From: a virus | Length of the DNA: 23,089 bases | IMG/VR virus record: IMGVR_UViG_3300030406_002361 | Location: 10,802-33,890 of that record | Reading direction: 5' to 3' (one strand) | Part shown: positions 1 to 23,089 of the stretch, piece after piece | How positions within the stretch are numbered: the first letter of the stretch is position 1 | How the letters are laid out: each line of letters begins with the position of its first letter | Made by a program: the position numbers and the translations under genes | Notes under the pieces: generated by a model | Databases searched by the model: none | What the model saw: the letters and a program-made list of their open reading frames with translations, nothing else | Told to the model about the DNA's origin: nothing

Positions 1-2
1 CT

Positions 3-1160
3 CCTCAAAAAGACAATGATAAATACTGGCCTTCTGAGTCTTCAGGTTCTAACTTATCGGGTGACAGTTATCACTTTGAGTGGGCTGAAAGTAGCGAGTG
101 CAGGAGAATAAGTGCTATAGAAGATTTAGGCAGTAGTAGATTTAGACTGTATGTAGACGATGCTTGGCAGTTCCAACATACTACCAGTGACACTCTTGAA
201 CTAAGGCAATATCATGATTCTAATACCAACGGTAGCCCTAACGTCAATACTACTCGCACAATCACTAATCCAGTACGCAGGTTACTCTTCTCTGCTGAGA
301 CTATACCTAGTTTCTCGATAGAACATAGTATCAGAACTAGAGACTTGGGCTCTTTCAATGCGACAGGTGAATCTACAGTAGCACCTGACGGCGAAGGTGA
401 CAGTAAGCAGTTAACTCGTATATTCAAAGGATGTAAGATAGTCGAATGGGAAATATCTTCTACTACAGATGCTGAATTGAAGTACAGATGTGTGTTCGAT
501 GCACTTGCTTGCTATACTGACACTGGTAGGTTAGAGTCCTCTAACAAGGGTGACAGATACACTGCTCACCGCATGTTCCAAAACACGGCTGACACTTTGA
601 AAGGTAGGAAGTCCAGTGGTATAGCAAGCGGCTCTGAAAAGCCGTTTATGTTTTACAACGGTACAATTAGTGCATTTAATCAAGATATCAATCTAATCAC
701 AGCGTTTGAACTTAGAGGTAAAACAGGTGTCGAGTTATTCCACACTATACAGAGTAACCCTGTAGCAGAGTCCGTTGACTCTTCCACTAACCTAAGTCTA
801 AAGCAGATACCTTATGGTGGTACTCGTAACGCTAGTATAGTAAGAGAAGGGCGTGAAGACTTTGAAATGGAAATCACAGTTGCATTAGAAAGTCAAACTA
901 TATATCACGAACTAAGAACTCACATACAGAGAAGCGGTACTGTCAATGCACAGGGTGGTGTCATAATGTTGCACTTTACCAAACCTGTAACAACAGGTGA
1001 TTCGGGTACTACACCTAGTCTGAGAATAATCATAGATGACTATTTCATAACCGAGTTACCAATACCTATGCCTGATGACAAAGGTTTGCTCTTTACTACT
1101 ATGAAGATAAAACCTCAAAACATTAAAGTCATAAGTGAAGATACGGAGTACCACTGTTAG
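3..1160 (+). CDS. Tail tube-like structural protein (5' end missing)
   Basis: The frame is open from base 3 to the TAG at 1158-1160, giving 385 codons with no start in the window; a TTG at 345 is internal, because the frame upstream stays open and reads as normal protein. No signal peptide or membrane segment is visible. The sequence follows the layout I know from phage tail tube proteins of the Phage_tube_2 type: a segment with PSFSIEHSIRTRD, then F-K-G-C-K-I-V-E-W followed by alternating beta strands, then a second half with KPFMFYNG and a strand pair ending in AFELRG. The last 100 residues hold a further beta domain with IIIDDYFITELPIPMPDD. Tube proteins polymerise into the hollow tail shaft. 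The position just upstream of the chaperone-like pair supports this. Family assignment is from remembered pattern, not a search. Confidence 0.62.
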   Translation, partial: PQKDNDKYWPSESSGSNLSGDSYHFEWAESSECRRISAIEDLGSSRFRLYVDDAWQFQHTTSDTLELRQYHDSNTNGSPNVNTTRTITNPVRRLLFSAETIPSFSIEHSIRTRDLGSFNATGESTVAPDGEGDSKQLTRIFKGCKIVEWEISSTTDAELKYRCVFDALACYTDTGRLESSNKGDRYTAHRMFQNTADTLKGRKSSGIASGSEKPFMFYNGTISAFNQDINLITAFELRGKTGVELFHTIQSNPVAESVDSSTNLSLKQIPYGGTRNASIVREGREDFEMEITVALESQTIYHELRTHIQRSGTVNAQGGVIMLHFTKPVTTGDSGTTPSLRIIIDDYFITELPIPMPDDKGLLFTTMKIKPQNIKVISEDTEYHC

Positions 1161-1164
1161 GAGG
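1160..1164 (+). promoter_or_regulatory. Shine-Dalgarno GGAGG for the small acidic gene
   Basis: GGAGG begins on the last base of the tail tube stop codon and lies 7 bases before the ATG at 1172. It fixes that start and suggests translation coupled to the upstream gene. Confidence 0.7.
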
Positions 1165-1171
1165 ACTGACC

Positions 1172-2090: not shown

Positions 2091-2570
2091 ATGGTAGACG
2101 GTAACATAGACCCCCGCTCTGTAGAAGCGATGGAGAAATTCAAAGAATACAGTAAGTCTGCGAAAGACAGTATGCAAGCCTTGCAACAACAAATGGACAA
2201 GTTCACTAACTCTATGTCAATGACCAAGAGTAATACCAAAGACTTGACAGAGTCTTTGAGAAACCTGAGCAACTTAGAGCCTTTTCACCAAATAGAAGAT
2301 TCAATCAAAGAAGTGCAGACAGGGTTAGAGCAAACTATGAATCGCACTCAAGCGCCAGCCACTGGTGTAAACCGTGAGCCTATTGCCACAGCAGGACAAG
2401 CGACTAGTGCTCCTGACATCACGGTGAACCTAAGAATAGATGTAAGTGGTGTAACTGACAAGAGTGACAAGAAAGCACTGGCTAAAGAAATTAGCAATAT
2501 GGTAACTAAAGAATTGAGAAGTAAAATGGGCGGCTCACTGACTCAAAGTGGATTCAACAGGAGCGGCTGA
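2091..2570 (+). CDS. Short coiled-coil protein, possible mini tape-measure protein
   Basis: From ATG 2091 this gives 159 residues (162 from GTG 2082). Residues 1 to about 85 are charged and helical with heptad-like spacing (EAMEKFKEYSKSAKDSMQAL onward), typical of coiled coils. A Pro/Ala/Thr-rich linker follows at about 85-110. The C-terminal part, ITVNLRIDVSGVTDKSD then a final helix and KMGGSL, resembles the ends of tape-measure proteins, which often show a beta strand, a helix and a Gly-rich tail. The place directly after the chaperone pair is where the tape measure normally sits. Tape-measure proteins set tail length and are usually 600 to more than 1,000 residues, so this would be exceptionally short and imply a stubby tail. 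It could instead be a baseplate or tail-completion protein. Confidence 0.5.
   Translation: MVDGNIDPRSVEAMEKFKEYSKSAKDSMQALQQQMDKFTNSMSMTKSNTKDLTESLRNLSNLEPFHQIEDSIKEVQTGLEQTMNRTQAPATGVNREPIATAGQATSAPDITVNLRIDVSGVTDKSDKKALAKEISNMVTKELRSKMGGSLTQSGFNRSG
2559..2563 (+). promoter_or_regulatory. Shine-Dalgarno AGGAG for the first large tail protein
   Basis: AGGAG lies 8 bases before ATG 2572. A second site, AAGGAG at 2582-2587, precedes ATG 2593. Both starts are viable; the upstream GTG at 2548 lies inside the previous gene and lacks a site. Confidence 0.5.
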
Positions 2571-2571
2571 G

Positions 2572-5115
2572 ATGGCAGACGAAGGAGAAAGGATGCCAGT
2601 CAAACTGGTACAAGAGAATGGCGACACTATTTCTCTTGATGCTACTAGCATAGACATCGTAGTCGAAAGAGTACAGTCTAACTTTGGTATTCCTTTCTTT
2701 GATGCAAAGCGTATGGGTATAGACCTCAATCAGTCTCAAGTAGCCGTAGAGATAAACGGAGTGTTTACAGACGATTTAGGACAAGAAGCGACATCAAAAG
2801 CCACCGCTACTATCGATTTGTTTCAGCCGCAACAAGTTGTCAATTGGGGTCAACCACTCAACAGTGGAGGCGGCACACCTACTTTCGGTATAACTTCATC
2901 TTTCAATAGCGGCTCTGCGTCAAGTGGTCTGACGGCTACTGGTTTCACAGGTGGCTTTAGCGGTGGATTTGGAGGTTCCAGCGGTACTATACCCACTGAC
3001 TTTACGGACTTTGGTAACAGAATACTACGCTATTGGAACAAAAGATACATCGATTTTCCACTAGCATATTGGGTGGAGGCTTCAGGTGAATTAGGGATAC
3101 CTGTCACTAATGGCTTACAATTGCATTTGAAATCTGACTCTTTAGCAAGTACACTCAATCATAATGATGAAGTATCTACTTGGGCAGACAGTAGCGGTAA
3201 CGGTAGGAATGCAACACAATCAAGTGCAACTGTAAAGCCAAAGTACGTGCGACTTTCTGAGTTTGATACAGCCGTTAGGTTTGATGGATTTAACGACTTC
3301 ATGTCGATTGCTAACAGTCCTTTTCTGAACTCAGAAGAATTCACTCTTATCGTGGCTTGTAAAAATAACGCTGGCTCAGGTAACCAACCAGTTATCAGTT
3401 CCAGTGATGAGACAGATAGCGGCTATTCATTAGTCATGGACAGAAGCAACACTAGGTGTACGTTCAAGTGGGAGGGTACTTCTTCTAACACCTTAAACAG
3501 TAACAGTGCAGTAACCATGATTGGTGATAAACACATTTTGTCTGTAAAAATGCATGATACTAATGCCAATGCTCAGTCGGATAAGGTTACGTTTTTCATA
3601 GATGGCTTATCTACTCAAACCACTTCTACTGACTTTACACCCGAAGATACTTCGGCATTTAACATAGGGAAAGATGTTAGTGATTTCTTCAAAGGAGATA
3701 TTTATGAAATCGCTTTTTACAATAGAAGGCTCGACGCTTCAGAATTAGAAAAGGTAGAGGGTTACCTAGCCCGTAAGCACGGAATCAAAATACGAGAATC
3801 AGAGCATGATTATTATGAAAGCGACTCTTACAATTATGACACAAAACACATTCGTGTAGCATTCGATAAAAACATGGTAGCAAGTTTCGCAGAGCCGTAT
3901 GGGTTCATCAACAAAAGAAGAGTGATACCGGGTATGGGAATAATAGGCTTTGGCTCAGGTGGTACAGACAAGCAAGAGATAGTAGTAGACGGAGTTAACC
4001 CTCAAGACCACTTTGAGATTACTCAAAGCAATCGTGAGTACCGTGTGGTTTTCCGAAGCCTAGATGGGAATTGGCGAAAGGTCAATGGGGAAATATATGC
4101 AGGTATCATTAAGACGATAACCGATAATGGGGACGGCACTTACAGTTTTACCATAGACTATGCTAACAAATATGGTTCGGCTGAACCTCATGCCATTGGT
4201 GATGAGATATATATCGATGCAGTTGATTACGGCGTAGCCAATTTGTTTTCTACAGAACTGACCCCTGTTTTGATTATACCAATAAAAAACGCTGACACAT
4301 TCGATGAACAGGCTGCTCCTGAAAAGGCAGTAGGTCCTGAATTTCCTGACCATGAAAATACAGCGCCTAGAGACACTGGCGGTGGTATAACTAGGACAGA
4401 CGAATATCTGACTTACCTATTATCAAAGGCACTGACTGCGAATTACATAGACATGGGTAGACCCGTTGATGCTAACAATAACCAAACGATGGCTAATGCG
4501 TTTACGGCTACCATTTCTACTTCGGCCAGTAATCATGCTTCTCGCTTGACCTTAACTCAGCAACATGCCTCTTCTTTGGGTAGTCTATCTGATACTATTA
4601 ACACCAATTTAGGAGTGGGGCAGATACCGGTTATACAAGGGTTCTCAGGTGGCAGAAGCGGAAAGAAAGTAAAAAGTGCTGGTGACAAAGTACAGGACTT
4701 ACTAGGTATACTTGCTAACAGTAACAACTTTACTTCTAACCCTCAGATAAACTTAGCAACCGATATACTACAACTAGGTGCTGATTTCGTTAACAACGTG
4801 GTTGGTTACGATTCAGGTGGCGATTACATCAGAGGTATACAGATACCTTACGATTCTTTGACGACTAAGGGTAAAAATTCACTTGATGCCGAAGTTGCTC
4901 AAAGAAACTTTTTCTTGACTACAGAAGGTAGCACTTCTGACAAACTATCGAGTGCTAACGACGTACATGCTTCTAGGTCGTTCTCTCATTCGTCTGAAGG
5001 ATATCTGAAAAATGGCATAAGTGGTGTTGTCACCGACTTTACTATAAAGAGAGATGCAGCGATGAAAGCCTATGAGTTCAGTTTGAAATTCATAGCAGCC
5101 GATATAATCTTGTGA
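2572..5115 (+). CDS. Large tail/baseplate protein with inserted LamG-like lectin domain
   Basis: This encodes 847 residues from ATG 2572 (840 from ATG 2593, where similarity to the next gene begins). Residues 8 to about 97 are a beta domain (MPVKLVQ, then SIDIVVERVQSNFGIP and VAVEINGVFTDD) that aligns with the N-terminus of the downstream gene. A Gly/Ser-rich hinge follows. Residues about 182-405 form a concanavalin/laminin-G-like domain: STWADSSGNGRNATQ, VRFDGFNDFM, FTLIVA, VTFFIDG, GDIYEIAFYNRRLDASELE and a closing YLARKHGI, a pattern typical of Laminin_G_3. Residues about 484-551 hold a small beta module ending in IGDEIYID. The C-terminal 160 residues (SAGDKVQDLLGILANS, GIQIPYDSL, RNFFLT, final AADIIL) again match the downstream gene. 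A distal tail or baseplate role with sugar binding is inferred. No signal peptide or membrane segment is visible. Confidence 0.6.
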   Translation: MADEGERMPVKLVQENGDTISLDATSIDIVVERVQSNFGIPFFDAKRMGIDLNQSQVAVEINGVFTDDLGQEATSKATATIDLFQPQQVVNWGQPLNSGGGTPTFGITSSFNSGSASSGLTATGFTGGFSGGFGGSSGTIPTDFTDFGNRILRYWNKRYIDFPLAYWVEASGELGIPVTNGLQLHLKSDSLASTLNHNDEVSTWADSSGNGRNATQSSATVKPKYVRLSEFDTAVRFDGFNDFMSIANSPFLNSEEFTLIVACKNNAGSGNQPVISSSDETDSGYSLVMDRSNTRCTFKWEGTSSNTLNSNSAVTMIGDKHILSVKMHDTNANAQSDKVTFFIDGLSTQTTSTDFTPEDTSAFNIGKDVSDFFKGDIYEIAFYNRRLDASELEKVEGYLARKHGIKIRESEHDYYESDSYNYDTKHIRVAFDKNMVASFAEPYGFINKRRVIPGMGIIGFGSGGTDKQEIVVDGVNPQDHFEITQSNREYRVVFRSLDGNWRKVNGEIYAGIIKTITDNGDGTYSFTIDYANKYGSAEPHAIGDEIYIDAVDYGVANLFSTELTPVLIIPIKNADTFDEQAAPEKAVGPEFPDHENTAPRDTGGGITRTDEYLTYLLSKALTANYIDMGRPVDANNNQTMANAFTATISTSASNHASRLTLTQQHASSLGSLSDTINTNLGVGQIPVIQGFSGGRSGKKVKSAGDKVQDLLGILANSNNFTSNPQINLATDILQLGADFVNNVVGYDSGGDYIRGIQIPYDSLTTKGKNSLDAEVAQRNFFLTTEGSTSDKLSSANDVHASRSFSHSSEGYLKNGISGVVTDFTIKRDAAMKAYEFSLKFIAADIIL

Positions 5116-5124: not shown

Positions 5125-7122
5125 ATGACTATACCAATTAAACTTCTTGCTGGCAACGACGGAGAGATATCTGTAGATTTAGATGCACAAAGCATAGACA
5201 TAGCAGTTGACCGAAACGTAAGTGCTTTTCCTACACCGGGCAACGTACTCAAAAGAATATCTGTCGATACTAACATACCTAGAGTTACTATGGAAATAAA
5301 TGGCATATTGTCAAATGATGAAGGTGCTGACATATCAGGAGTTACAGGCGCAGAGGATTTGTTATCAGTAACTCCTATGAGAACAATAATCAACTTCGGT
5401 AGCATATTACCCACTCAGTCATCTTCTACTTTCAAACGTGCAGTAAAGACCGCTAGCCCTAGTGGACCTCGTGTGTTTTATACAAACACTTACACTGTGA
5501 CCAACAGTTTAAGAAAAAACTCTACTGATACAATATCTAACGTAGTTGATGGAACTTACGACTACAGTCATCCCGGCTGTCAACCTACGGAAGACCCTAC
5601 TACTAGGATTATGACTCATTTAAAATTTACAGATAGTTACTCAATAGGAGCGACAGGTGCATTGGACATATCAGCAGTTGTAGGTGATGTGACTATGATA
5701 GCGTCACTCTTGATTAAAGAAGGTGATAGGATAGAGAACGATAACGGTGATTTACTAGGTATAGTTCAAAGTGTTACTGATACCACTGTTACGTTCACTA
5801 CCGCTTTATCGGTCGCTATATCTGTTAACGACCAACTTTATGGAAGCCCTAAGTGTTTTAATTACAAAAACGAATTTTTGGGATTTGTAACAGACGCTCG
5901 CTATGTGGACATACCCAATGATAACTTTGACATTACTTTGACGCTTGATAGAAAAATAGAGGCTGACGTGCTAGAAGGTACTGAAATAACCCTCAACAAA
6001 AGTAACGATGGTATTGAAGATTTGCTGAATAACGAGTATATTAAACTCGTACCGTCTTACTGGTTAGAAGACCCTAGTAGAGGACCTACTGGCTCTTTAC
6101 CTAATGCAGATGAGTACACCGCAGGTACTGACAATAACTACGGAATCAAGTTTATCTTCGACGCTACCAAAACTCCCGTAGTAGCCGGAGGTAGCGCTAC
6201 TCCTCAATATGAAAGTTCTAGGAGATTTACATCATCACCTTTGGGCAATAGCGTCTGCATAGATGATGCGGCTTACAATGACATAGAGATTTCTATACCC
6301 ATCAAGGGCTTAGCGACAGCAAGTGGTAGCCCTGCTGCTAACTTAGCCGAAATAGTAGAGTCAGCGTTTCAACTAGGTGATAATTTACTTGCATTTACAA
6401 CAACTAGGCTCAACCCTGAAGGTGACAGTAAGTTGTTCAATAGCGGCCAACCTACTACATTCAGAGTAACACGTAGTAATGCAGTGCTTATGATAGAGCA
6501 AATCTACAAACCTGCTAAGCCAATAGAACACCCTAGGTTATTCAGTCAAGGTATATCTGAATTCATAGAGTCTTACAATTCAACTAACTCGTTCAGTTCC
6601 TTCGCTAATAAATCAGCGGGAGATAAAGCGCAGGATTTGATAGGTTTAATTTCAAATTCAAGTAAGACTTCGGGAGACTTGTTTACTGGTATACAGATAC
6701 CCTATGACAGTCTTATCACAAGTTCAGGAGTGACTAGCATTGCTAGGAACTTCTTCTTAACGTTCGGTGAAATACCAGCCTCTGAAAAAGGCTCGATAGC
6801 CAATAATAGAGCCGCATCAGAACCTATGCACGGTCTTTTATTGACCGGGGACGCTGGAGGTAACAAACCTGATTTTAGTGTAGATAAAGATAGTATACTC
6901 AGAGAGTGGTTCGGTAGTATAGTAGATGACGTAACTAGTTTGATAGGATTTGTTACTGCTTCAGTAACTGATATTTTCGTAACTTTGAAAACCAATCCTC
7001 ATGGCAATGATGGCGGTATCAGGATAATGCCGGAGAAACTTCATGTGCGATATGATGCTGGCAACAACTACTACGCATACAGTTTACTTCTAGTAGCCAC
7101 AGACTTCGTAATAGGTGTATGA
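5125..7122 (+). CDS. Large tail/baseplate protein, paralogue of the preceding gene
   Basis: This encodes 665 residues from ATG 5125. Its first 95 residues (MTIPIKLLAGNDG, QSIDIAVDRNVSAFPTPGNV, VTMEINGILSNDEG, IINFGSIL) align with the start of the preceding protein. Its C-terminal part shares SAGDKAQDLIGLISNS, GIQIPYDSL, RNFFLT and a final beta strand ending ATDFVIGV. The middle is different: it lacks the lectin domain and has a small beta module at residues about 185-241 (GDRIENDNGDLLGIVQSV onward), then an Asp/Asn-rich segment with SYWLEDPSRGPTGSL. The C-terminal region contains an extra insert of roughly 50 residues (WFGSIVDDVTSLIGFVTASV) that is unusually hydrophobic. Shared termini suggest both proteins occupy equivalent positions in one ring or tip complex. 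I cannot name the family; the distal tail or baseplate role is inferred from order. Confidence 0.58.
   Translation: MTIPIKLLAGNDGEISVDLDAQSIDIAVDRNVSAFPTPGNVLKRISVDTNIPRVTMEINGILSNDEGADISGVTGAEDLLSVTPMRTIINFGSILPTQSSSTFKRAVKTASPSGPRVFYTNTYTVTNSLRKNSTDTISNVVDGTYDYSHPGCQPTEDPTTRIMTHLKFTDSYSIGATGALDISAVVGDVTMIASLLIKEGDRIENDNGDLLGIVQSVTDTTVTFTTALSVAISVNDQLYGSPKCFNYKNEFLGFVTDARYVDIPNDNFDITLTLDRKIEADVLEGTEITLNKSNDGIEDLLNNEYIKLVPSYWLEDPSRGPTGSLPNADEYTAGTDNNYGIKFIFDATKTPVVAGGSATPQYESSRRFTSSPLGNSVCIDDAAYNDIEISIPIKGLATASGSPAANLAEIVESAFQLGDNLLAFTTTRLNPEGDSKLFNSGQPTTFRVTRSNAVLMIEQIYKPAKPIEHPRLFSQGISEFIESYNSTNSFSSFANKSAGDKAQDLIGLISNSSKTSGDLFTGIQIPYDSLITSSGVTSIARNFFLTFGEIPASEKGSIANNRAASEPMHGLLLTGDAGGNKPDFSVDKDSILREWFGSIVDDVTSLIGFVTASVTDIFVTLKTNPHGNDGGIRIMPEKLHVRYDAGNNYYAYSLLLVATDFVIGV
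7113..7117 (+). promoter_or_regulatory. Shine-Dalgarno AGGTG favouring ATG 7124 of the giant gene
   Basis: AGGTG lies 6 bases before ATG 7124. The in-frame GTG at 7115 overlaps the motif and so cannot use it. The ATG follows the previous stop (TGA 7120-7122) by one base. Confidence 0.5.
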
Positions 7123-7123
7123 T

Positions 7124-13100: not shown

Positions 13101-16100
13101 ACTCTACTATACCCGGTGCGGCTGGTCGTAATTTCTGTACTTGGTTAGACAGTAGCAAAGCGCAGACGGCTTACAAGCCTCAGTATCTAATAGGACACGG
13201 TGGTAGATTCAGGAATTACTGGTGTCAACCTGACGAAATAACTGGAGAGAATATGCACCCTGCACCTATGCCTATCAACAGATTCGGTAGGCCATTTGCA
13301 CCTATTACCACGTTGAAGGAATATCTACCGCCTGAAAACCCTGATGACGCTTTACTGAACAACTTGAATTTAGGAGCGGACAGGATAGACAGTCAGTCGG
13401 TAATGCCTACTGCCAACACAGAGTTAGTTAGCGGAAGGAACTCTAACACTTTACTGAATGAATCTTTTGAAACTAAAAGCCCCGCTTCGGTATTAGTAGA
13501 TGGACTAAGAGTAGGTACAAAGGCTAAGGCTAGGATTAACTTTGGCGGTATAACACAAGCAGGTATACCCGGTTGGGCACCTGACCTTAGTAAATGGGGA
13601 TTCGATAACGACGGCACTACTAACGTGTCGAGATATGGTAATGCTAGTAACGCTGCTACTGCTATGACTGCCACTACTGCACAGGCTAGCAGCGATGGTT
13701 ATATCCCTTCAGATGATATGAAGATTGAAAATATAGGCAAGGCCCCCATATATGGTTTGAGATTTACTGACCACAGAGGAGATAATCATACTATTAGATT
13801 ACTTTACAGGCAGTTTGGACAGAAGTTTGCTAATGACAATACTTTCTTACCCTCTACACTTGATGAGGAAATCATCATCCATTTCGATGACAGAGATGTA
13901 GGACAAGGTGGATTTACAATTGGTCGCCACATGGTAGGTAGCGGAGAAGTTTGTGGTGAAAAGACAGGTGGCAACGATATAAACTTCAAAGGTAATCTTT
14001 GGAACACTTATCCTTCTCCTATTGTAGGTGTTAAAGTCGCTACTAATTTAGCGAGTGATACAATGACTGTTACGTTAGACAGACCTTACGCAGGTCATTC
14101 AGGTGACGCTGTGATGAATTCTCACCCTGACATACTAGGTTACCTTGGCTTCCCTGAAAGCGGTATGTTTCAATTATCTAAACACGGTACAGGTGGTTCA
14201 AATCACCAAGGTTTGCCATTTTATTACACTAGTCGTACACATGACGCTGCTGGTGGCACTCACAAGTTCTACGGAGTACAAGGTGGAGGAGTAAACCACG
14301 CTAACGGAGATTGGTATCTCAGTCCGAGAATCAACTTTACATGCTTGTTAACTGATGAAGTCATAGCAGCAGCAGTAGAGCATGCTATCAATTCTCCAAG
14401 TAATGATGCAGATGTTACATTTGATTGTACCAATTTATTTGCACCTGACGGTAAGAAACTGAGCGAATGGGGAGTTAGTCCAACTGCAATCAGAATACAA
14501 ACTAGAGCAGACGGTAAAACTTCTATGAGCAAATTGTTTGAGGCAAAGTTGACTAGAGATTGGGGGCTACTTGACGGCGCATCTACTGATGCAGTTGTAG
14601 CAAGTAAACACACTGGTGGGCTATCCAATGCTGAAAAAGATGCAGGTACTAGACTAGACGTAGGTTACATACCTTACACTCTTTTACAAATTGAAACTAA
14701 GTTCAGAGGGTCAAATGCTAACACTGCCACTCCTGTTTTGGTTGACAGTCAGAATAATGTAGTGGATACTACCACTTGGCAAAGAAACCTTAGAGGAGAC
14801 AACTTCACAGATGTTGCAGGCGACCACATTATACCAAGAGTGGATTCACCTTGCTTAGAAGTTGATGCAGTCTCTAGCGGAGTAATTCAATCGGCATCTA
14901 ACGAGTCTTGGGCATTACTAGGTAAACTAGCATCTCATGATGCAAATAGTTGGGGAGAGCCTTACATCGTTTGGTATAGTACTACTGAATATGCAGAAGT
15001 TCGTAGCAAACCCGGCTCTAACGCAATAACCCATGTAGATGAAATAGTAGAGTCGGCTAATTTCTCACCTGCTCAACATGATTTAGTATTCAAAGGCACG
15101 AGCCGCATCAAAGATGCTAGTCAAGCAGATGGCGTAAGGCGAGCAGGTAGTAAACAAGCCAGTCCTTTCCTTTACTTCAGAGGAGGAAGAGACAGCCCTG
15201 ACCACTGGGTGCCACTTTACTTTGGTGGTGGGTTTAGCGGCGCAGTAGTTGACATAAACGACGGTACTCAGAACGATTACTCTGATTTCTATACACATCC
15301 TTATTCTTCAGGGCCGACAGGTAGTGCAGGCTTCCAAAATGTGGGAGAGTTGGCTGGTTCTTACGCTTTACTTGATGCTAATGCTATGCTTGCTATGTTC
15401 CCCGGCACACCTTACCTAGACCAGCATCGAGGTCAAAACCATCCTCCTTTCTTCAACCAAGATGCTATACTACCGTTTGATATGGCAAAGGGTGCTAACG
15501 CTAAGGTTACTGGTTTGACTTACACTGATTTAACAAACACAGTTTCGGTCAACATACCCAGCCCAATAGTACTAAGGTTCGCTCACCCTAATGCTAGATA
15601 CAGTGCAGAAGGAGATACTAATAACCAAACAACGTATATGATATTTGGACCGGGGCAAGCCTTCCCACATAACACTGCTTCGTTTGAACCACAAGGTAAA
15701 GAAATAGTAACGATAGGTAACGGTTACAGCGCTGTACCTGTGCACTTTAATGATGACTTTAGATTAGATACGTTCTTACCTAACCAGTTGACTAACGGAG
15801 ACGAAGCAGAGCATAGTGGCTTTAACAGACAAACTGATATCACTGACGCTCACTTACCTATGAGTACGTTCTTCCAACAAAATAAACGCTCAGGATTTAA
15901 TTACGCAATGAATTGGGAGCCCACCAAAGGTTTCCCGTCTACGGCAGCCAGTGCTACGAAAGTTTACACTCAGAGTTACAACCATGCTTTCTATTACGAA
16001 GGTTCGGTTGCTACCACTTCTAACTTACCTAAGCACTATCATCCTTTCAATTATGTGTTTACAGATATTAATAACAATTCAATTGGTTCAGGTACTTATC

Positions 16101-19100
16101 CTAAGACTAGGAAGTCCGCAGTTATTTGGCACATGGATGGTGGTTATCACCCCGGAGGTCATTTCCTAGATGACCACGTAAACATAAATCCCAAACACCC
16201 TGTTGCCACTTCAAGGGTAAGTGATGGTAGTGGAGCAAGCAGAAACACCACTGTTTTCAGACCCTGCGGTCTTTTAGCAAAGGCTTACTTAACTAAGTAC
16301 AGCGCACCCGGTGACCAAGAGGCTGATGACAATGTGGTAATAGTAGACGCTACTCGTGTACAAAATGCAGAAGAGTTAGGTGCAATAGTGAGTGGTGCAA
16401 TCAACACTTTCCCCGGTAAAAACCCACTAAAGGCTATAGGAGGTACGTTCATGCCTTCTATGCAAAACTCTCACAAACAAGACAGATACGGTTGGGTTGA
16501 GTTAGATGTAGTGGCTTATGCTGCTGAAATTGGAATTACTAATGCTTCACTTACAGTAAACAGCACTGAGACGACTTATCCTGATTATGGGTGGGTAAGA
16601 GTAAGCGATGGTAATGTATCGGGTTATGCGCCTTATATCTCTCAATTAGTAACCGGTACCGACGTTACTTTCAATTTAGGTAAGAACGCTGTAACTTCTA
16701 ACACTAACATAGTAGACGTAGATTCAGGAGCGGCTTTAGTACCTGATAACACTTTCAAAGCATATGTTTGGACAAAGGCAGGCACACACCGCTTCAACAA
16801 TGACTCGGCCAACAATAACCGTGACCACATGTGTCAAGTGCACTACAGTGGGTATGTTGACGCAGTAGACAGAACAAAGGCAATAGGAGCAGTAGGGTGG
16901 GCTGGAGAAGCCTATTCTTATCTTAACTCTTACGAAATAGGTACTAACCTACACCCTGCTGGACTGGGCGCTTGGCATGCGGCGCTAGGTTTCAGCCCTT
17001 ACGGTGCGGCAGAAACCTGCTTATCTTCTTCTTCTCCTGTCGGTTTAGTAGAAACACCTGCTGCTAGTTTTTACGCAGACTACTGTGTAACAGGTTTGTC
17101 TAGCAGGCACTTGATTGCAATTACGCATGAAAGTGAATTACCTTTGATTGCCAAAGCAGACAAAGACGGTATAACATGCGCTGGAGACTGGCTAAAGTTA
17201 GTAGACACTGGTGATATAACCCATGCCGGTACAATCGCATGGGACACAGGCAAAGTCCACAACAAGAGCAGATATGTCGGCTCGGCTACTGCTGGTCCGC
17301 ATGTAGAGGCTCAGATGCACAGTGGTTATACTAGGCCGTCTGCATCGAGTGATTATCCGGCATCAGGTGCTGCACCAACTGATGGAGAACTACACCGTGC
17401 CATTCAAAGTGGAGATATGGTAAGAGCCAATGCTTGTAATTATGCGACTGGTGATTTGTTTTGGGATGAAAGCGTAGTCAAACAGTCGGCTTTCCATGAA
17501 AATGCAAGTACTTACGGAGTAGAATGTGTGGGTGTTAGTAACCATGACCATTACTTGGATGTAACTGCATCACCCCATACAGGTCTGTACGGTTACTATG
17601 GCGGTAGACATCCGTCTCGCAACTTTTTGCCTGAGCATGTAGTATGGAAGAGGATGGATGGTGGCGGGCTCACCATGCCAGCGGTCAACGCTCGTGGTCT
17701 AGGTATGATTCCTTGGGTAAAGCGCAAAGACGGCAGTGATTACAAGTTAGTTGGAGAGAAGGTACTCGGTAACGTCAGGTTTAGTTTTGAGTCTACCAAC
17801 TCGGCTATGTTCCCTATCATACAAGCACAAGAATTAGGCCACCCTCAATTGTCAGAGAAGCATCCATTTGAGATAAGAAACGCTTTACTTATTCCAAACG
17901 AACACGTTCAGTTTGAAAGTGTACAAGTGATAGACGATACAGGCCAAGAGCACAGAATAGAAGGCGGGTCGCCTCTAGGTACTGTGATACTCGACTTCAG
18001 GCACATCAGTGATAGAGACGTTGAAGGACTAGCACCTGCATTGGCTGGAGCAGGAGTAAACCCTAACTTGAAAATTAGATTACCTAACCCTGACGAAATT
18101 CCGGGTAACATAGTAGTCAGGTCAGGCTTTGACAGAATACAGGCTTATCAAAACGAATCATTTGGTTCGGGTGGACTACAGCATCCTGCTCAGAACATTA
18201 CTAACATTCGACAAATGTTCAACAACGACTACAGTGGCCCTCGCCTATGGCCTACTTGGGAGAACAATGGCTGGGAACACCTCAGTCAGGATGCATCTGA
18301 CATATCTATAGCAAAGAGCGACAGTAGGCTAAAGTTCCCTGCATCTACTAACGAAGGTTGGTCAGACCATACAAACAACGCTCCTTTGGAGTCCGCATAC
18401 GAGCCACATGACAGAAGCCTATTCTTCCATGTCACCCGTATGGGCGTAAGCATGACACATCGTTACGATGTAGACGAGTTGTCTTTTAGTCAATATGATG
18501 AGGTAAATAACGAAATCGATGTGACTACTACACCTGAGGCTGCTACTTGGTTAGATACCAGTGAACAAAGTGGAGGTCGTTATTTCTTGAGAGTTTATGA
18601 CCCTACTACAAATAAGGGAGTATTAGCATCCTATACCGGGACTGGTACAAACAAATTCACTGGAGTGGTATTATCTCCTGACTTCAAGTCTTTCATCAGT
18701 GGGAAAAGTGGACTGAAGGTAGTGCCAAGTTACTACGTACCTGCGGGTAGCACCCGTATGTTTGCAGCAAGAAGATTACGTGACCACAGCGAATACAGTG
18801 GTGCGAGCCCTGACATGCAAAAGATTGACTGGCATGACTTGTATACTAACTTGCCATCAACTACTGGTGTGATGAAAGACCCATCTGAAGCACACCAAAG
18901 ATTAGCCAAACCCAAAATGACCCCTATGCCCATACCTAGGATGGGGCACCATTACGTTACTCCGACTATGGCACTGATGCCGGGTCACTATGCTCACCCT
19001 GCTTATCAGAGGCTATATGACCTCAATACTGCTTGTAAGAGTTCAAGTCATGACCCTATTTCCAAATCGCTAGTAGGTACTCTTGAGACAGCGAGGACCA

Positions 19101-22100
19101 GCGGCACCAATACACTTGATGACCAAGGATTTGGACGTGACCCTCTAATTTGGTTCTCTACACCGACTGCTGCTTTCTCACCTAGCGACATACATGGTGG
19201 TGCTTTCACACTCTTGACTGAAACCAAACTAAAGTACGAAGGGTACGGTATAGCAGCGAGTTCAGGTGCGAACGCTGGTACAATAAACGCCTCAGGTGGA
19301 CATACACTAGTGTTAGAAGCAGCCAACTCTTACACGCTGAACCACCATTTCCCTGACCCACTTGAAGTAGGTACCTATCAGATTATTATTCAACCGAATG
19401 TATTCAAGCAACAACTCAAAGGTTTCCACCAAAACGGACCTGCTACTGATGTCCCTGATGGCTCTGTAGTAGAGTTGACAGGTCAGCAAGTAAACACTGT
19501 CATTGCGATAGAGAAGGATATGAGCACGAGAGGGGCGTATGCATTGATATTAGCAGAGGCAACTATGGCTGATGTAAGAGGATGTGAAGTAATACTTAAC
19601 GAGATTATACTTGACATAGAGCCCGATGCTGGTAGCCAATTCACTAACCTGCCTCCGCTCGCTTTGTACAATCCTCTAGGTGTACAAGAAAGCACTAGCC
19701 CGTCATTCACAAGAAGAAGCCTACCGTACAGGCCCGGTATGTTCCAAAGCGCTACTCCCGGTAGAACACTAACGATTCCTTGGTGGGGTATTCTACACAA
19801 AGACGGTGCTACTGCTACAGGCGCTAACAAGTTCAAACACCTTGAATGGCACAAACCTGACAACTATTACGAACTTTGTAGAGCGAACTTCGGGTGCGTG
19901 GGTGCTCAAATTACTTTAGCAGGTTATCCTACGTCTTTCCTTGACATATACGAGCCTCATAAGAGATTGAGAAGCCTAAATCCAAACTGTGTTGTAATCT
20001 CAAAGAATCAATCCAGTACGACTATAACTGTTGATAATAACGATTTATTCCCTGTCACTCCGTATTATGGAGAGGTGTTGGAATACACCAAAGATGGTGT
20101 AAGGTATACCGCTACTTATTCAAATAGAACTGGAACTTTAGCACACGCTACCCTAGGGGCTTCTACTACTTTCTCAGGTGTCTCAGGTAGTGCGGCGTTT
20201 TGGGCCAATCTGAATGGTGACGCTGACGCAGGGAACAATACGATTATCAGATTAAGCCGACCTTATGACAACGCTCAGTCTGATACTATATTTACAGACT
20301 CAGAGACTAGTATGTTGACTCGTAACTTACCTCAATTGTCTAATGGTACTAGAGATACCAACTCTCTCAACCCAGCAGATGCATTCCTGTGTATGTGGCA
20401 CCCTAACCTTGGCAGACCGTTCACTTGGTACAGTGACACTGCTGATGGTGGTACAAGGGCTTTCTATACTAATGACGGTGCTGCTGACACTCCTCAAGAT
20501 AAGAAGGGTTACAATCACTTACCTGAGCACTTTGAGACTATACATTATCAAGACTTCAACTACGTGGCAAGTAAAGGTCCGTTCGGACTAGCAATGAAGT
20601 GGGTAGTTCCACCGCATGACCACGATAATGATTCAGGCACGGCCCTAAGTCACGACGGTACAATACAGACTGCTGCTCAGATAGATGCTAAGGTCGACGG
20701 CTCCGGCACGTTAAATCACCAAGGTGGTACAGTAGGTTCAAACAAGTATAACTTCAGTGGATTTTGGCCCGGCGGCTCTCATGGAGGAGGCGCAGTTAGT
20801 AGGTTAGAATCATACGGTCATTCACTGATTGGATGGGGTAGTGACACTTACGGAATGGATTGTGAAACCTATCAAGATTCAACTGGAGTTGCCACTCTGT
20901 CTTTACCAAATGATAGAAACAGATGCTTCGGTTACCGCATGGCAGTAAGGCAACTGTATAACAGACCACGCTGGTCGCCTTATGTCCGTGGCTGGCTTGA
21001 AGTAGCAAACAGCAACGCTATGCTTGGTTACTATCATGGGCCACTCATTCAGCATGATTCTAAGACAAACGGTTGGGATTACGTAGGCTCTGATACAGGA
21101 CAAAGCGACCAAGATTTCGACGCTATGTATGTGGGTATACTTGAGAGAATAACACAAGTCTCTAGTTTACTTGGGCAAGACCAAATCGGTAGACAAGTCA
21201 GGTATAGCGATGGGCGAAGAATGACTGGACCGTTTGGTTGTCCTGTTAGAACTTTGAGAAACGCTTCTACTACTACTCGTCTTTATCCAAATGACGAAAA
21301 CGGACAAGGGGTAGAGGAGTTGGCACAAGCCCACCGACATTACATGATTGACTGGTGGGGTAATACTCGTGGTGAAGATGTTAGGCGTTTCCCTGTAAGA
21401 GGATTTGGTTTGCGACCATCTTGGGACCCCGAAGACGCTTACAAAGACACTAACGTAACTCATAGACCAGCCGCTCATAATTTGTTTGGCGGTGATGGTA
21501 ATGACCGTTACAGTGGTAATGACAACAGTGACAATAACGCTGCGAGTAACATGGGAACTGTTGATTGGTTTAATCCAGCCAGCGCTCTCAGAGTTGGTGA
21601 CCGTGGTGATGGGCGAGGTGTACGCTGGCCGACTGTCTTTAACGAAAGTCTGTTGATGGCTGTAAGCGAAAACCATGACGCTACAGGGTTAGTTCTATCG
21701 CACAGTACAGCAGAGCCAATCTTTGGACAGGGACTAGTCAGACCAAGTAACGATACTTTGCAAAGTGGAGAAATCGAAAGAGGCATCAGTGACAGGGTAG
21801 ATTTGAACTCAGATGATGGTCTATTGAAGCCAAGTTCTAACGTGGGCGAAGCAATCGAAACGGTCAATGCTGACATCAGAGGTGCTGAACCAGTATCGAG
21901 GAACGACGTAAGGCTAGGATTAGATGTAGATACCATGGCTGAGTTGAACGATGGAATAAGTCGTGAATACATCGTAATGTCCACAGAGGCGACTAGCCTA
22001 CACACTGACAGAGAAGTAGGTCAGAGAACCAATATCAGAGGGGCTTACAATGTCGGTAGTCGTACTCTAAAAGACTTGGACATGACTGCACTTAATTGGA

Positions 22101-22798
22101 GTGCTCAACCAGTTACTGGTGTAGTGAAGCATTCCAATGCACATGCTATGTGGCCTCTTGGTGGTACATACGTAATAGAATGGAGTAAACACGCAGGTAA
22201 CCTAGATGTCAAAGGTTGGGGTAAGGCAGGAGTGTCTTCTTCTTCCAACCCATATCAAGATGCTAACCACGACCCTATACTTGAGAACATAAATTACACA
22301 GATAGCACTATACAATTTTTGTACAGGCCTATTTACGGACTTGATTACAAACATACTCAGATGTTTAGACCTTACATTGCTCTCAAAGGTAGTAGTCCTC
22401 AAGAAAATGCTAATTTCTACAGGGCGACATCGGGTGGTAAATACGGTATGTTCACTAGTGATGTGCCATCTGCTCGTACAGGAACACCAAGTGCACCGCC
22501 ATACGCTCCTGTTTACACTATGGTACCAAGTGCCAGCCTGACCGAACCTGATAGCCAAGGTCCTAAGATTCAGGGTGTAGATGTCACAGGCTATGATAAG
22601 ACTGACATACGTTCGCCTGTAGCAAGAGTAGTCATGTCTGAAAACACACTTGAGCACTTTAGAGCAGATGCGAGTAGGAAATCAATAGATGATGACGAGG
22701 GCGACTATAGCGTACAACCTAGGCATAGTCAAACATTACATCCGAAAGGTAGCAAGGGTGATGCATCTTATAACACAGGGGACCATAGCGGGGAGTGA
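7124..22798 (+). CDS. Giant 5,224-residue virion protein, probable tail-tip/adsorption structure
   Basis: One frame runs 15.7 kb without a stop from ATG 7124 to TGA 22798. Residues about 10-238 are a LamG/concanavalin-like domain (IKFNGISDSILVP, FTLETWFIP, VTVIFDRKTISMFVNGD, YLGGRGGDFRG, IGLWRFEE). The rest is a Ser/Thr/Asn/Gly/His-rich mosaic, mostly beta-type, with at least four divergent copies of a strand-FP-strand module (residues about 1092-1155, 1316-1375, 1485-1550 and 4297-4356) and an SH3-like module at about 876-928. Short helices ending in IN recur (HINKTI, RLINQA, HAINSP, GAINTF). About thirty cysteines are scattered singly. I see no signal peptide, membrane span, protease or glycosidase signature. 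Its position after two baseplate-like genes, the lectin domain and the size suggest a receptor-binding or baseplate scaffold. No family beyond the modules is recognised. A cell-surface adhesin is less likely without a secretion signal. Confidence 0.68.
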   Translation: MTLTVDPGYGIKFNGISDSILVPVNSKNIHGVHNEERTALPTAINSFTLETWFIPDCGGVIFEQENVMRLTVGSPSSPAPATFEIRLRNQASGRDAIYTLSTARPVTKVNGRIAYWEGIQFPSNSALHNSYLATDAEKDDASALNEGHRELLNVTVIFDRKTISMFVNGDLAVSQELEEVHELVTQQNHMYLGGRGGDFRGTLEAVHWSTGALPSGYQQYAPVKSDNTIGLWRFEEPVSPVKTITTTPAITASTSASSTITIGTSAAQTLIDELSGQSGLTSINFTTSPYSSGDYSVTVYSSSSSATVSIPKVPYNILVNPLGYNLNTGKPTNMSPERLRLMAIDASAGTVTVESIHLDFASNASTGRRGALANHDAGRFVIITGDCIVDTGNGNDFQPYGTGTQFSQRQGQVIIDESDFSNNGIMFSQSMAIDSHEYNKFSASTSNVGSQFLAGHSGRHILNHVTSHPFMGTLPPTESHEVEKKLDIGSDVISAAFPSQFSDIRSTVPVKSVVSSYSTHGDIKLTYISNRGYVTEVIENGMADIDDTQRDILAVGGTSFDIEPFMLKSVSSDNESGAIKHVIPSKESRIAILSVPDLAEHNYAPFVQLHYNAVDLNGSQFRTGSSSRLTANISGGNTVLTLESVKSFGYDGEIIQANLININGTKASAGSSIVATINYSAKTLTFTSAVDSAFYTLATTGAVVKLTSRSPKILLSKTLPKVSTIVTGSTSILDVIRSSLEKGPLSLLSAGGVVGFDTPEMFGYLDGDLEGENAEGQVAESVLNRDLCPENYLPLTSTDSPQTTPQAISLATTELNDRQSVFHRVIVRSNKARLGDFSVTDSLRNQNATNGERLRIGLSIQNSSGYASGHTGSMSVTGVDATTVVFVGNSIYKANGKNIGTVTAVTSASITIGGGTGEALVDSDELFTEPQIIGKGTTNQSSCIHEYFDIIEHKSSGRVTKLTIQPSDKARFNLLSKLNSSSNLANHISVENLVSRGRVLSFADDANGNTVMTAHGLVSDLSSSSVYVKGSAAPDSHIVKEIMPGAPVVTMTLGGPGQGAINTKESWDPSPLSRLAWNTRRDCQTAVSSTSSTTVVVTPLNNKADDLQSWGTYCFPKKGRIYLAIAGNQGEQTRFASAEYTSKTGTTFTFDSGSTHLGSGKFVLADGSEAASLSDWITSTGITTGSLLHVDDKFSEESMCNDGTTINDRLFQTLDTVQHDYQLGTQYASTRALVEIPLFEQFFFDRPEEGIFPGPNNSMKLHIDATHTAHSWNPSPVGRRPNSISPQDPELFGPFSYAIQNDTHRSGTKVTRPYDSANYRIYVEDANVFPIPSAPPVDVAGLGGSARYRRAFLSNGEWVTYSARDTTDHYLTVVDSGDDHAFSEHFLRDIRVGAHISPAPGYQDMNYSGMADNPSLISAGYENRRSFYFDRSNVMTQGGNVDYGLKQYVSAIELRSGPTSNPHLPKIKSKRPRGKITSVTGSPATSITLDDASLFPIKSPDSDYNFRVAWKNASGTVTRGFYNNRSDNVLTITNPDSGFTPSVGDEIYVEDLYATASGTYPKVKETFLSRAWAHPYCVGGLRQGDTVWMNMHYTNPHAIEGLFCKSRGTLNEAEVWTGFNGGEGSLDSNPRDSTPIENFLIGDSCIETAQNLVQHINKTIELNYDVMGLSETAPIVAYLDPYQCTQDHARVLLYDVEHDREFIAFQDLHMQVQSSAATASIGTVDNNKTGYIDNSVSGSGSLLDVAAGFPTQNKRLNTSEASDFIEASYAHKSTWNSNALNVHMEHHIGGVDDTATNGYTDRNNNAVTLPADALEKHQEIDDTSREQSTFFDTPDGTRVVPAFLAMKGIRNSTLSLSDTRMNNLDHWTKMDFVRRLTVDMGEVSLKDGVTNIESAAREVVRLINQAGAKNGKTHARKPADQYLGSRKKFDPANVHQNADFATTASTHDPSPFWNVDTAFASHDRGTHMGYVRAHLGRVVLDSDGNQGFSIIIHSTIPGAAGRNFCTWLDSSKAQTAYKPQYLIGHGGRFRNYWCQPDEITGENMHPAPMPINRFGRPFAPITTLKEYLPPENPDDALLNNLNLGADRIDSQSVMPTANTELVSGRNSNTLLNESFETKSPASVLVDGLRVGTKAKARINFGGITQAGIPGWAPDLSKWGFDNDGTTNVSRYGNASNAATAMTATTAQASSDGYIPSDDMKIENIGKAPIYGLRFTDHRGDNHTIRLLYRQFGQKFANDNTFLPSTLDEEIIIHFDDRDVGQGGFTIGRHMVGSGEVCGEKTGGNDINFKGNLWNTYPSPIVGVKVATNLASDTMTVTLDRPYAGHSGDAVMNSHPDILGYLGFPESGMFQLSKHGTGGSNHQGLPFYYTSRTHDAAGGTHKFYGVQGGGVNHANGDWYLSPRINFTCLLTDEVIAAAVEHAINSPSNDADVTFDCTNLFAPDGKKLSEWGVSPTAIRIQTRADGKTSMSKLFEAKLTRDWGLLDGASTDAVVASKHTGGLSNAEKDAGTRLDVGYIPYTLLQIETKFRGSNANTATPVLVDSQNNVVDTTTWQRNLRGDNFTDVAGDHIIPRVDSPCLEVDAVSSGVIQSASNESWALLGKLASHDANSWGEPYIVWYSTTEYAEVRSKPGSNAITHVDEIVESANFSPAQHDLVFKGTSRIKDASQADGVRRAGSKQASPFLYFRGGRDSPDHWVPLYFGGGFSGAVVDINDGTQNDYSDFYTHPYSSGPTGSAGFQNVGELAGSYALLDANAMLAMFPGTPYLDQHRGQNHPPFFNQDAILPFDMAKGANAKVTGLTYTDLTNTVSVNIPSPIVLRFAHPNARYSAEGDTNNQTTYMIFGPGQAFPHNTASFEPQGKEIVTIGNGYSAVPVHFNDDFRLDTFLPNQLTNGDEAEHSGFNRQTDITDAHLPMSTFFQQNKRSGFNYAMNWEPTKGFPSTAASATKVYTQSYNHAFYYEGSVATTSNLPKHYHPFNYVFTDINNNSIGSGTYPKTRKSAVIWHMDGGYHPGGHFLDDHVNINPKHPVATSRVSDGSGASRNTTVFRPCGLLAKAYLTKYSAPGDQEADDNVVIVDATRVQNAEELGAIVSGAINTFPGKNPLKAIGGTFMPSMQNSHKQDRYGWVELDVVAYAAEIGITNASLTVNSTETTYPDYGWVRVSDGNVSGYAPYISQLVTGTDVTFNLGKNAVTSNTNIVDVDSGAALVPDNTFKAYVWTKAGTHRFNNDSANNNRDHMCQVHYSGYVDAVDRTKAIGAVGWAGEAYSYLNSYEIGTNLHPAGLGAWHAALGFSPYGAAETCLSSSSPVGLVETPAASFYADYCVTGLSSRHLIAITHESELPLIAKADKDGITCAGDWLKLVDTGDITHAGTIAWDTGKVHNKSRYVGSATAGPHVEAQMHSGYTRPSASSDYPASGAAPTDGELHRAIQSGDMVRANACNYATGDLFWDESVVKQSAFHENASTYGVECVGVSNHDHYLDVTASPHTGLYGYYGGRHPSRNFLPEHVVWKRMDGGGLTMPAVNARGLGMIPWVKRKDGSDYKLVGEKVLGNVRFSFESTNSAMFPIIQAQELGHPQLSEKHPFEIRNALLIPNEHVQFESVQVIDDTGQEHRIEGGSPLGTVILDFRHISDRDVEGLAPALAGAGVNPNLKIRLPNPDEIPGNIVVRSGFDRIQAYQNESFGSGGLQHPAQNITNIRQMFNNDYSGPRLWPTWENNGWEHLSQDASDISIAKSDSRLKFPASTNEGWSDHTNNAPLESAYEPHDRSLFFHVTRMGVSMTHRYDVDELSFSQYDEVNNEIDVTTTPEAATWLDTSEQSGGRYFLRVYDPTTNKGVLASYTGTGTNKFTGVVLSPDFKSFISGKSGLKVVPSYYVPAGSTRMFAARRLRDHSEYSGASPDMQKIDWHDLYTNLPSTTGVMKDPSEAHQRLAKPKMTPMPIPRMGHHYVTPTMALMPGHYAHPAYQRLYDLNTACKSSSHDPISKSLVGTLETARTSGTNTLDDQGFGRDPLIWFSTPTAAFSPSDIHGGAFTLLTETKLKYEGYGIAASSGANAGTINASGGHTLVLEAANSYTLNHHFPDPLEVGTYQIIIQPNVFKQQLKGFHQNGPATDVPDGSVVELTGQQVNTVIAIEKDMSTRGAYALILAEATMADVRGCEVILNEIILDIEPDAGSQFTNLPPLALYNPLGVQESTSPSFTRRSLPYRPGMFQSATPGRTLTIPWWGILHKDGATATGANKFKHLEWHKPDNYYELCRANFGCVGAQITLAGYPTSFLDIYEPHKRLRSLNPNCVVISKNQSSTTITVDNNDLFPVTPYYGEVLEYTKDGVRYTATYSNRTGTLAHATLGASTTFSGVSGSAAFWANLNGDADAGNNTIIRLSRPYDNAQSDTIFTDSETSMLTRNLPQLSNGTRDTNSLNPADAFLCMWHPNLGRPFTWYSDTADGGTRAFYTNDGAADTPQDKKGYNHLPEHFETIHYQDFNYVASKGPFGLAMKWVVPPHDHDNDSGTALSHDGTIQTAAQIDAKVDGSGTLNHQGGTVGSNKYNFSGFWPGGSHGGGAVSRLESYGHSLIGWGSDTYGMDCETYQDSTGVATLSLPNDRNRCFGYRMAVRQLYNRPRWSPYVRGWLEVANSNAMLGYYHGPLIQHDSKTNGWDYVGSDTGQSDQDFDAMYVGILERITQVSSLLGQDQIGRQVRYSDGRRMTGPFGCPVRTLRNASTTTRLYPNDENGQGVEELAQAHRHYMIDWWGNTRGEDVRRFPVRGFGLRPSWDPEDAYKDTNVTHRPAAHNLFGGDGNDRYSGNDNSDNNAASNMGTVDWFNPASALRVGDRGDGRGVRWPTVFNESLLMAVSENHDATGLVLSHSTAEPIFGQGLVRPSNDTLQSGEIERGISDRVDLNSDDGLLKPSSNVGEAIETVNADIRGAEPVSRNDVRLGLDVDTMAELNDGISREYIVMSTEATSLHTDREVGQRTNIRGAYNVGSRTLKDLDMTALNWSAQPVTGVVKHSNAHAMWPLGGTYVIEWSKHAGNLDVKGWGKAGVSSSSNPYQDANHDPILENINYTDSTIQFLYRPIYGLDYKHTQMFRPYIALKGSSPQENANFYRATSGGKYGMFTSDVPSARTGTPSAPPYAPVYTMVPSASLTEPDSQGPKIQGVDVTGYDKTDIRSPVARVVMSENTLEHFRADASRKSIDDDEGDYSVQPRHSQTLHPKGSKGDASYNTGDHSGE
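7151..7837 (+). other. LamG/concanavalin-like domain of the giant protein
   Basis: The domain reads as a typical jelly-roll lectin: an opening strand with FNG, a FTLETWF strand, FVNGD before the penultimate strands, YLGGRGG and a closing W.FEE. Such domains bind sugars or mediate adhesion. It lies at the extreme N-terminus, next to the baseplate-like genes. Confidence 0.6.
10396..10590 (+). repeat. FP-module copy 1 in the giant gene
   Basis: Protein repeat: TTVVVTP strand, CFPKKGRIYLA, then AEYTSKTGTTFTF. It matches a beta module I know from phage tail proteins (strand, FP, Gly, strand, Y-S/T, TG). Copies differ too much for DNA-level repetition. Confidence 0.45.
11068..11250 (+). repeat. 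FP-module copy 2 in the giant gene
   Basis: Protein repeat: YRIYVEDANVFPIP, then RRAFLSNGEWVTYSARDTTD and a hydrophobic strand (HYLTVVDSG). Same order of elements as copy 1. Confidence 0.4.
11573..11770 (+). repeat. FP-module copy 3 in the giant gene
   Basis: Protein repeat: SITLDDASLFPIK, then GTVTRGFYNNRSDNVLTI and SVGDEIYVED. It is the clearest pair with copy 4. Confidence 0.5.
20010..20190 (+). repeat. FP-module copy 4 in the giant gene
   Basis: Protein repeat: TTITVDNNDLFPVTP, then GVRYTATYSNRTGTLAHATL. It shares the strand-D-LFP and Y.NR core with copy 3, although about 8 kb apart. Confidence 0.5.
22791..22798 (+). promoter_or_regulatory. Shine-Dalgarno GGGAGTGA for the last gene
   Basis: A purine-rich GGGAG/GAGTGA motif overlaps the giant gene's stop codon and precedes ATG 22801 by 2 to 5 bases. 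It supports that start and coupled translation. Confidence 0.55.
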
Positions 22799-22800
22799 GC

Positions 22801-23089
22801 ATGGCAGTAGGTAAGAACACAGTTACTGGTCGCTTTGATGCCGACCAAAATTCTGTTATGAAAGTCGTGCGTAAGCCACGTTTCGTAGATAATGCTGTCA
22901 GGCATGGTGAATACACACGAGTCAAAGCAGGCTTCGCTGTCAATAAACCGACCGCTAGCGATTTCATACCTACGGCTGAAAGAAAGTACAAGTTAATCGA
23001 AGAGGAAGATACTATTCGTTTACTTCACAATCCTACAGAGAGCGTGACATACGAAGGTGCTTTGTTTTTCGATAAAGACAAGGTCACTA
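22801..23089 (+). CDS. Unrecognised protein, 3' end beyond the window
   Basis: The frame opens at ATG 22801, two bases after the giant gene's stop, and is open for 96 codons to the window end. It begins MAVGKNTVTGRFDADQNSVM, then a basic stretch (KVVRKPRFVDNAVRHGEYTR), FAVNKPTASDFIP, and a mixed-charge part (ERKYKLIEEEDTIRLLHNPT) ending near GALFFDKDKVT. No signal peptide, membrane span or known motif is visible. Because it is coupled to the giant gene, it is probably another virion or tail-assembly component, but nothing in the visible part identifies it. Confidence 0.6.
   Translation, partial: MAVGKNTVTGRFDADQNSVMKVVRKPRFVDNAVRHGEYTRVKAGFAVNKPTASDFIPTAERKYKLIEEEDTIRLLHNPTESVTYEGALFFDKDKVT

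Follow-up and report, generated by a model that had tools for sequence, protein, structure and literature searches.

Absence of GATC, AGCT and further short words from a putative archaeal tailed virus and most of its relatives, and even spacing of GATC in viruses with one type of methyltransferase

Loss of restriction sites in phages has long been known. Deschavanne and Radman are said to have reported in 1991 that GATC is counter-selected in enterobacterial phages by mismatch repair, and the viruses described here resemble that case in that viral GATC would have been removed under a host nuclease other than classical restriction. In contrast to the enterobacterial case, no MutH was found in the hosts and viruses studied here, and GATC is not evenly spaced in Escherichia coli. 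Phage T4 with its Dam gene is comparable in that a virus with its own adenine methyltransferase keeps GATC, whereas the enzyme described below (L085-type) belongs to PF01555 and its carriers space GATC evenly, which T4 does not.

Restriction-site avoidance in prokaryotic viruses, as outlined by Rusinov et al. (2018, PMC6286503), is an under-representation of short palindromic words that is credited to restriction pressure; according to the same source, GATC was under-represented in all 46 phages with enzyme-encoding hosts. Here, too, the affected words lie far below a coding-aware expectation and are mostly palindromic. In contrast to the described avoidance, several words are exactly zero over records of 24–103 kb, and this throughout most of a clade, an invariant core is accompanied by a switching barcode, no cognate host enzyme was found in a search of three methyltransferase families, and methyltransferase-bearing relatives keep GATC evenly spaced.

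Magroviruses are described as tailed viruses of Poseidoniales archaea, with Apasviridae as an example of Magrovirales (PMC12999244). The virus studied here shares with them an archaeal-type tailed-virus character, head genes related to those of haloarchaeal tailed viruses and a 109-kb relative with replication genes. In the accessible text of one magrovirus paper (PMC10160649), a word search for restriction, methyltransferase and motif returned no mention.

Word counts in the virus record and its relatives

The sample consisted of positions 10,802–33,890 of the 33,890-base virus record IMGVR_UViG_3300030406_002361; this whole stretch of 23,089 bases is referred to as the window. The record is a genome fragment, and its counts speak for 33,890 bases only. 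All genes mentioned in the window lie on the plus strand. An open reading frame without family match (3–1160) is cut by a scaffold gap of 10 N that immediately precedes the window. It is followed by a gene for a virion structural protein of 855 amino acids with a LamG-like domain (2548–5115; phrog_10356, E = 5e-20; PF13385, E = 1.8e-10), a 665-amino-acid frame without family match (5125–7122) and, according to the open reading frame listing, a frame of 5,227 amino acids that takes up two thirds of the window (7115–22798). Neither half of the latter had a PHROG match, and Pfam, on the first half only, gave no more than a LamG-like hit that was weak and fell short of the cut-off.

The part of the record upstream of the window contains genes for a prohead protease (PF04586) and for a major capsid protein that shares 33–34% identity, across 99% of its length, with the capsid proteins of the haloarchaeal tailed viruses HCTV and HVTV, and so contains the head module of an archaeal tailed virus. 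One weak match, to Pseudanabaena phage PA-SR01, had hinted at a cyanophage origin, an idea abandoned once the protease and the capsid were found to match archaeal viruses. Judged by its genes, the record fits a magrovirus-like archaeal tailed virus, set beside the magroviruses by their published description, and its hosts are most likely Poseidoniales (Marine Group II) archaea, which abound in the ocean.

The preliminary description had claimed a complete and word-specific absence of GATC and AGCT, of which base composition would give roughly 80 each. Exact counts on both strands confirmed zero for both words, compared with 86 of each expected from base composition and with 63 GATC and 102 AGCT from a maximal-order Markov model. 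In 500 codon-preserving shuffles of the window genes, GATC occurred 60.1 ± 6.2 times (minimum 35) and AGCT 92.1 ± 8.2 times (minimum 68). The other palindromes named in that description were indeed present (CTAG 109, GTAC 102, CATG 85, TCGA 45, GGCC 29, GCGC 28), and the remaining 10,801 bases of the record contain no GATC, AGCT or CGCG either, so that within this record the claim withstood the refuting test named with it. Across the whole window (1–23089), three further words were missing from both strands, namely CGCG (shuffle mean 24.8), CCWGG (29.5) and CCAGA/TCTGG (51.9). GATC, AGCT, CGCG and CCWGG are palindromic, like type II recognition sites, whereas CCAGA/TCTGG is non-palindromic. 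The hexamers TCTAGA, TTCGAA, AATATT, CTGCAG and GGTCTC were each absent as well (shuffle means 6.1–7.9 in the window and 9.7–12.8 in the record); given the large number of words examined, less weight attaches to these absences. TTAA (56 versus 97 by codon shuffle) and TCGA (45 versus 75) are scarce yet present in the window.

The IMG/VR capsid scan yielded 504 relatives, 80 of them among the matches listed. The clade set was made up of this record and 72 relatives of at least 7 kb (n = 73), some of which are near-duplicates. GATC was absent from 71 of the 73 members and AGCT equally from 71, over GC contents of 0.36–0.59, and CCWGG was absent from all 73 (65 with an expectation of at least 8). 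Among the 15 records of 24–109 kb, 12 lacked GATC, 13 AGCT and 15 CCWGG; G011 (90 kb) and G032 (103 kb), for example, contain no GATC where 290 and 379 sites are expected. Other words form a barcode that changes from virus to virus: CGCG was absent from 44/73 members, ACGT from 39/72, CCAGA from 24/66, CTAG from 18/72, TCGA from 8/73, GTAC from 6/73 and GGCC from 0/73. The fewest changes on the capsid tree, counted by a quick method, were 12 for CGCG, 10 for ACGT, 8 for CCAGA, 7 for CTAG and 4 each for GTAC and TCGA, compared with 2 for GATC, 1 for AGCT and none for CCWGG. The absence of the core words is total, word-specific and clade-wide, and other words have been switched repeatedly.

How sites differ between near relatives was apparent from L003 (72.8% identity), in which ACGT does not occur, while this virus has 93 sites. 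Of 23 aligned ACGT sites none was kept and 17 were one base off; CATG was kept at 14 of 33 sites and CTAG at 7 of 33. Words are lost mostly by single substitutions, and selection against the words is the best fit to these clade data. As an exception within the clade, the record of L061 (G038) contains GATC and AGCT confined to its last 4.4 kb (58.9–63.3 kb). This end may be chimeric, recombinant or host-derived; its proteins gave no informative match. CCAGA/TCTGG in the same record is found nowhere but in the initial 5.4 kb and the final 4 kb.

Methyltransferases in viruses that keep the words

It had been predicted beforehand that a methyltransferase for a given word would be encoded by the viruses that keep this word. 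PF01555 genes were found in one of 51 records, in two copies in the 109-kb relative G002, which is also the relative with the most GATC (119 versus 417 expected) and encodes a clamp-loader-like AAA protein, an SNF2 helicase and a PD-(D/E)XK nuclease. For this record, that of L005, a Dam gene had been predicted; PF02086 was absent and a PF01555 gene was present instead. PF02086 (Dam-type, D12) occurred in one of 50 records, G043, which has no GATC, and PF00145 in none of 51. L049 and L050 keep AGCT, and no gene of the three methyltransferase families was seen in either, including the 25-kb record of L050, for which an AGCT methyltransferase had been predicted; replacement of AGCT avoidance by a methyltransferase was not apparent (G030).

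The L085-type enzyme of G002 (PF01555) has MboIIA and RsrI as nearest solved relatives, and its structure model is of moderate confidence (pLDDT 73.7). Relatives of the enzyme occur in 75 records of a phage collection. L147 and L148, which encode enzymes of this type at 94% and 90% identity and have DNA in common with G002, keep GATC as well. GATC was kept in 3/3 carriers of the L085-type enzyme compared with 1/72 others (Fisher p = 6e-5), the gene having been searched for in 50 of the 72 non-carriers, most of which are fragments. The sole non-carrier that keeps GATC, G009, is a 24-kb fragment that contains 34 GATC sites and lacks such a gene. As judged from gene and word content, a viral methyltransferase can probably replace GATC avoidance, and we infer that the L085-type enzyme would modify GATC.

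Spacing of GATC in viruses and host chromosomes

The GATC sites of G002 are evenly spaced, with a coefficient of variation (CV) of the gaps of 0.51 compared with 0.99 for random placement (z = −5.7); G009 has a CV of 0.54. With its first 4.7 kb set aside, G002 has a CV of 0.42 and a shortest gap of at least 297 bases. GATC is the most even of 133 tetramers in G002, the next having a CV of 0.94. At 1–4.6 kb, G002 contains 15 clustered GATC sites, partly in a run of small open reading frames that share a repeated GATC-bearing segment. In the aligned DNA of G009 and G002 (74.5% identity), 8 GATC sites are common and 18 and 10, respectively, private; sites move while the spacing stays.

The analysis was extended to 31 loci that encode an enzyme sharing 40% identity or more with the L085 type; G002 was left out. 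These carrier loci comprise 28 IMG/VR contigs and three contigs from cellular assemblies, and belong to related as well as unrelated viruses, several being mutually related. GATC was more even than random in 31/31 loci (mean CV ratio 0.66, combined z = −11.0). AGCT reached z = −2.8, and none of the other palindromes was even. The effect was weak in more distant relatives of the enzyme, with even GATC in 27 of 38 testable loci (z = −3.5), and in 68 testable cellular-genome loci with distant relatives GATC was even (p < 0.01) in three, with a mean CV ratio of 0.97. T4 with its Dam gene does not space GATC evenly (CV 0.96 in the first 50 kb).

Several other causes of the evenness were rejected. 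The L084-type enzyme, the other one of G002, was accompanied by even GATC in none of 17 carrier loci. Depletion alone does not produce evenness: CGCG, GGCC and CTAG in virus records have CVs of 0.84–1.89, and in the host CGCG reaches a CV of 1.08 at 0.37 of its expected count. A rule of one GATC per gene does not hold in G002, where one gene of 11 kb contains 11 sites and, among 100 genes below 300 amino acids, 64 have none. Pure avoidance of close pairs misfits the host gap tail and carriers with surplus GATC, such as L191 (60 versus 43 expected) and L195 (42 versus 27). Finally, a common ruler of GATC and AGCT was rejected by the absence of mutual repulsion in 14 loci. As a counterpoint to the rejection of pair avoidance, truncation of the upper gap tail was not significant in G002 alone (p = 0.22, 47 gaps); it was significant in a pool of 14 carriers and G009, picked partly for low CV (p = 0.004).

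In Poseidoniales chromosomes both words are thinned, GATC to 0.30–0.77 of expectation in 15/15 samples and AGCT to 0.30–0.73 in 13/15. In 400 kb of G077, GATC (CV 0.77) and AGCT (CV 0.83) have the two lowest values of 136 tetramers. The largest GATC gap there is 1,209 bases, no gap exceeds 1,500 bases where 10.9 are expected, and the gap tail is truncated at its upper end (0/5,000 simulations). The evenness ranks among about 135 tetramers in five larger host samples were 2, 5, 1, 1 and 1 for GATC and 3, 7, 2, 22 and 2 for AGCT; in small samples the GATC rank varies (40/136 in G078, 60/127 in G088). In 50 kb of E. coli K-12, GATC ranked 89th with a CV of 1.04.

Some individual contigs deserve mention. 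L182, in which GATC and AGCT are both even, has a gene for a C5 methyltransferase as well. AGCT, CTAG and GTAC are absent from L253 (PALK01000027.1, labelled Rickettsiales) and from L254 (DQKQ01000082.1, labelled Flavobacteriales), and each of the two encodes an L085-type methyltransferase and has very even GATC; L253 has a GATC CV of 0.35 and a PCNA gene, L254 a CV of 0.13 and an ERCC4-type nuclease. Both resemble contigs of archaeal viruses that ended up in bacterial genome bins.

Explanations for word loss and even spacing

We consider it likely that the sites were purged by long selection under attack by sequence-specific host nucleases. Such nucleases, restriction enzymes or enzymes acting like them, would attack DNA containing GATC, AGCT, CGCG, CCWGG or CCAGA/TCTGG; site loss would be the usual escape and a viral methyltransferase the alternative. 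GATC, AGCT and CCWGG would reflect a core pressure felt by almost all clade members, and other words would come and go with changing hosts or host defences. Nuclease pressure predicts a loss that is word-specific, clade-wide and independent of GC content, together with retention of GATC where a methyltransferase is present. The agent would be a nuclease seated in the host, and the host presumably Poseidoniales.

The preliminary description had named long-term escape from restriction enzymes or modification-dependent nucleases as the probable cause. On the viral side, restriction escape agrees with the features just listed and with a loss that is mostly one substitution deep, but its weak point is the host side. 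No cognate host enzymes for the lost words were found in three methyltransferase families, which together with MutH made up a host search in metagenome assemblies that can miss such genes. The 2.06-Mb contig of G077 has one PF01555 gene and no PF02086 or PF00145 gene, and a strong L085-type gene occurs in two of 60 Poseidoniales. D12 enzymes were found in 2/40 genomes and C5 methyltransferases in 4/40, too few for the latter to be the missing host enzymes. The PF01555 gene of G077 (L362, 18362–19318) encodes a methyltransferase of about 320 amino acids with an SPPY motif, and comparable genes occur in 16 more of 40 Poseidoniales. In the accessible part of a marine methylome study (PMC9516812), CGCG, GGTAG and TCGCGA are named for MGIIA archaea and, in some Caudovirales, GATC is named. 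One MGIIA genome is reported there to have methylated CGCG together with a methyltransferase congruent with it, and neither GATC nor AGCT is listed for MGIIA in that part. The sole hint of modification-dependent nucleases is a GmrSD-type gene that adjoins an L085-type methyltransferase on one Poseidoniales contig (L252, 6647–10927) and on one virus-like contig (L254, 3588–5622).

Neither ordinary restriction nor escape from it explains the even spacing, including that of GATC and AGCT in the thinned host chromosomes. Even spacing would require a cost per site as well as the need for a site within reach, and both would follow from a repair or surveillance system directed at such sites. Tentatively, GATC, together with AGCT, may serve as a genome ruler in Poseidoniales, with few sites that are never far apart. 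A maintenance or surveillance system would then have to find a site within about a kilobase, and viruses would either erase every site, as almost all of the magrovirus-like genomes analysed here have done, or retain the ruler by means of a GATC methyltransferase of their own. If this is true, selection acts on the spacing of a four-base word and not on its number or positions.

It seems rather unlikely that GATC and AGCT are the working sites of a host system for genome maintenance or surveillance, for example strand-marked repair by site-directed nicking, to which the word loss itself would also be due. Anywhere in the host chromosome, such a system would need a site no more than about a kilobase away; a virus without its own methyltransferase would be damaged at the sites and erase them, and one with the enzyme would keep an even set. 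The two lowest gap CVs and the truncated gap tail of G077 agree with this, as do the even GATC of all carrier loci, some above expectation (L191, L195), and the turnover of sites at constant spacing between G009 and G002. MutS1-type genes gave a strong match in 18/30 Poseidoniales and any match in 21/30, and AGCT was more even in seven MutS1-positive than in seven negative genomes (0.84 versus 0.95, p = 0.013, confounded by kinship and genome completeness), with p = 0.14 for GATC. On the other hand, MutH was found in 0/96 Poseidoniales and in 0/27 virus and carrier records, which speaks against MutH-type repair. E. coli K-12 uses GATC in repair and does not space it evenly, and neither does T4. 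Moreover, GATC is uneven in some hosts (G078, G088), the upper gap tail of G002 alone is not significantly truncated, and CCWGG, CGCG and the barcode words would need another cause.

That the viruses mimic the word use of GATC- and AGCT-poor hosts is very improbable. The hosts are indeed depleted of both words, but they contain hundreds of sites where the viruses have none, and this total absence exceeds that of any host sampled; in addition, near relatives differ at all ACGT sites, and a virus without sites shows no evenness. Chance, codon usage or mutational bias, for which no support was found, is refuted by the codon-preserving shuffles (60 GATC and 92 AGCT versus 0) and is also at odds with an identical core absence from 36 to 59% GC and with the normal counts of sibling palindromes.

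As far as our searches go, three findings are new, namely the total loss throughout the clade, the barcode that switches between viruses, and the even GATC, which is tied to one viral methyltransferase type and also observed in host chromosomes; no published description of evenly spaced GATC with a gap ceiling was found among open-licence PubMed Central papers. The core loss with the barcode on top could perhaps be read as a record of the nucleases of the hosts, and may help to match uncultured viruses to their hosts. The sharp question raised by these data is why GATC is evenly spaced, with a ceiling on its gaps, both in viruses with one type of methyltransferase and in host chromosomes.
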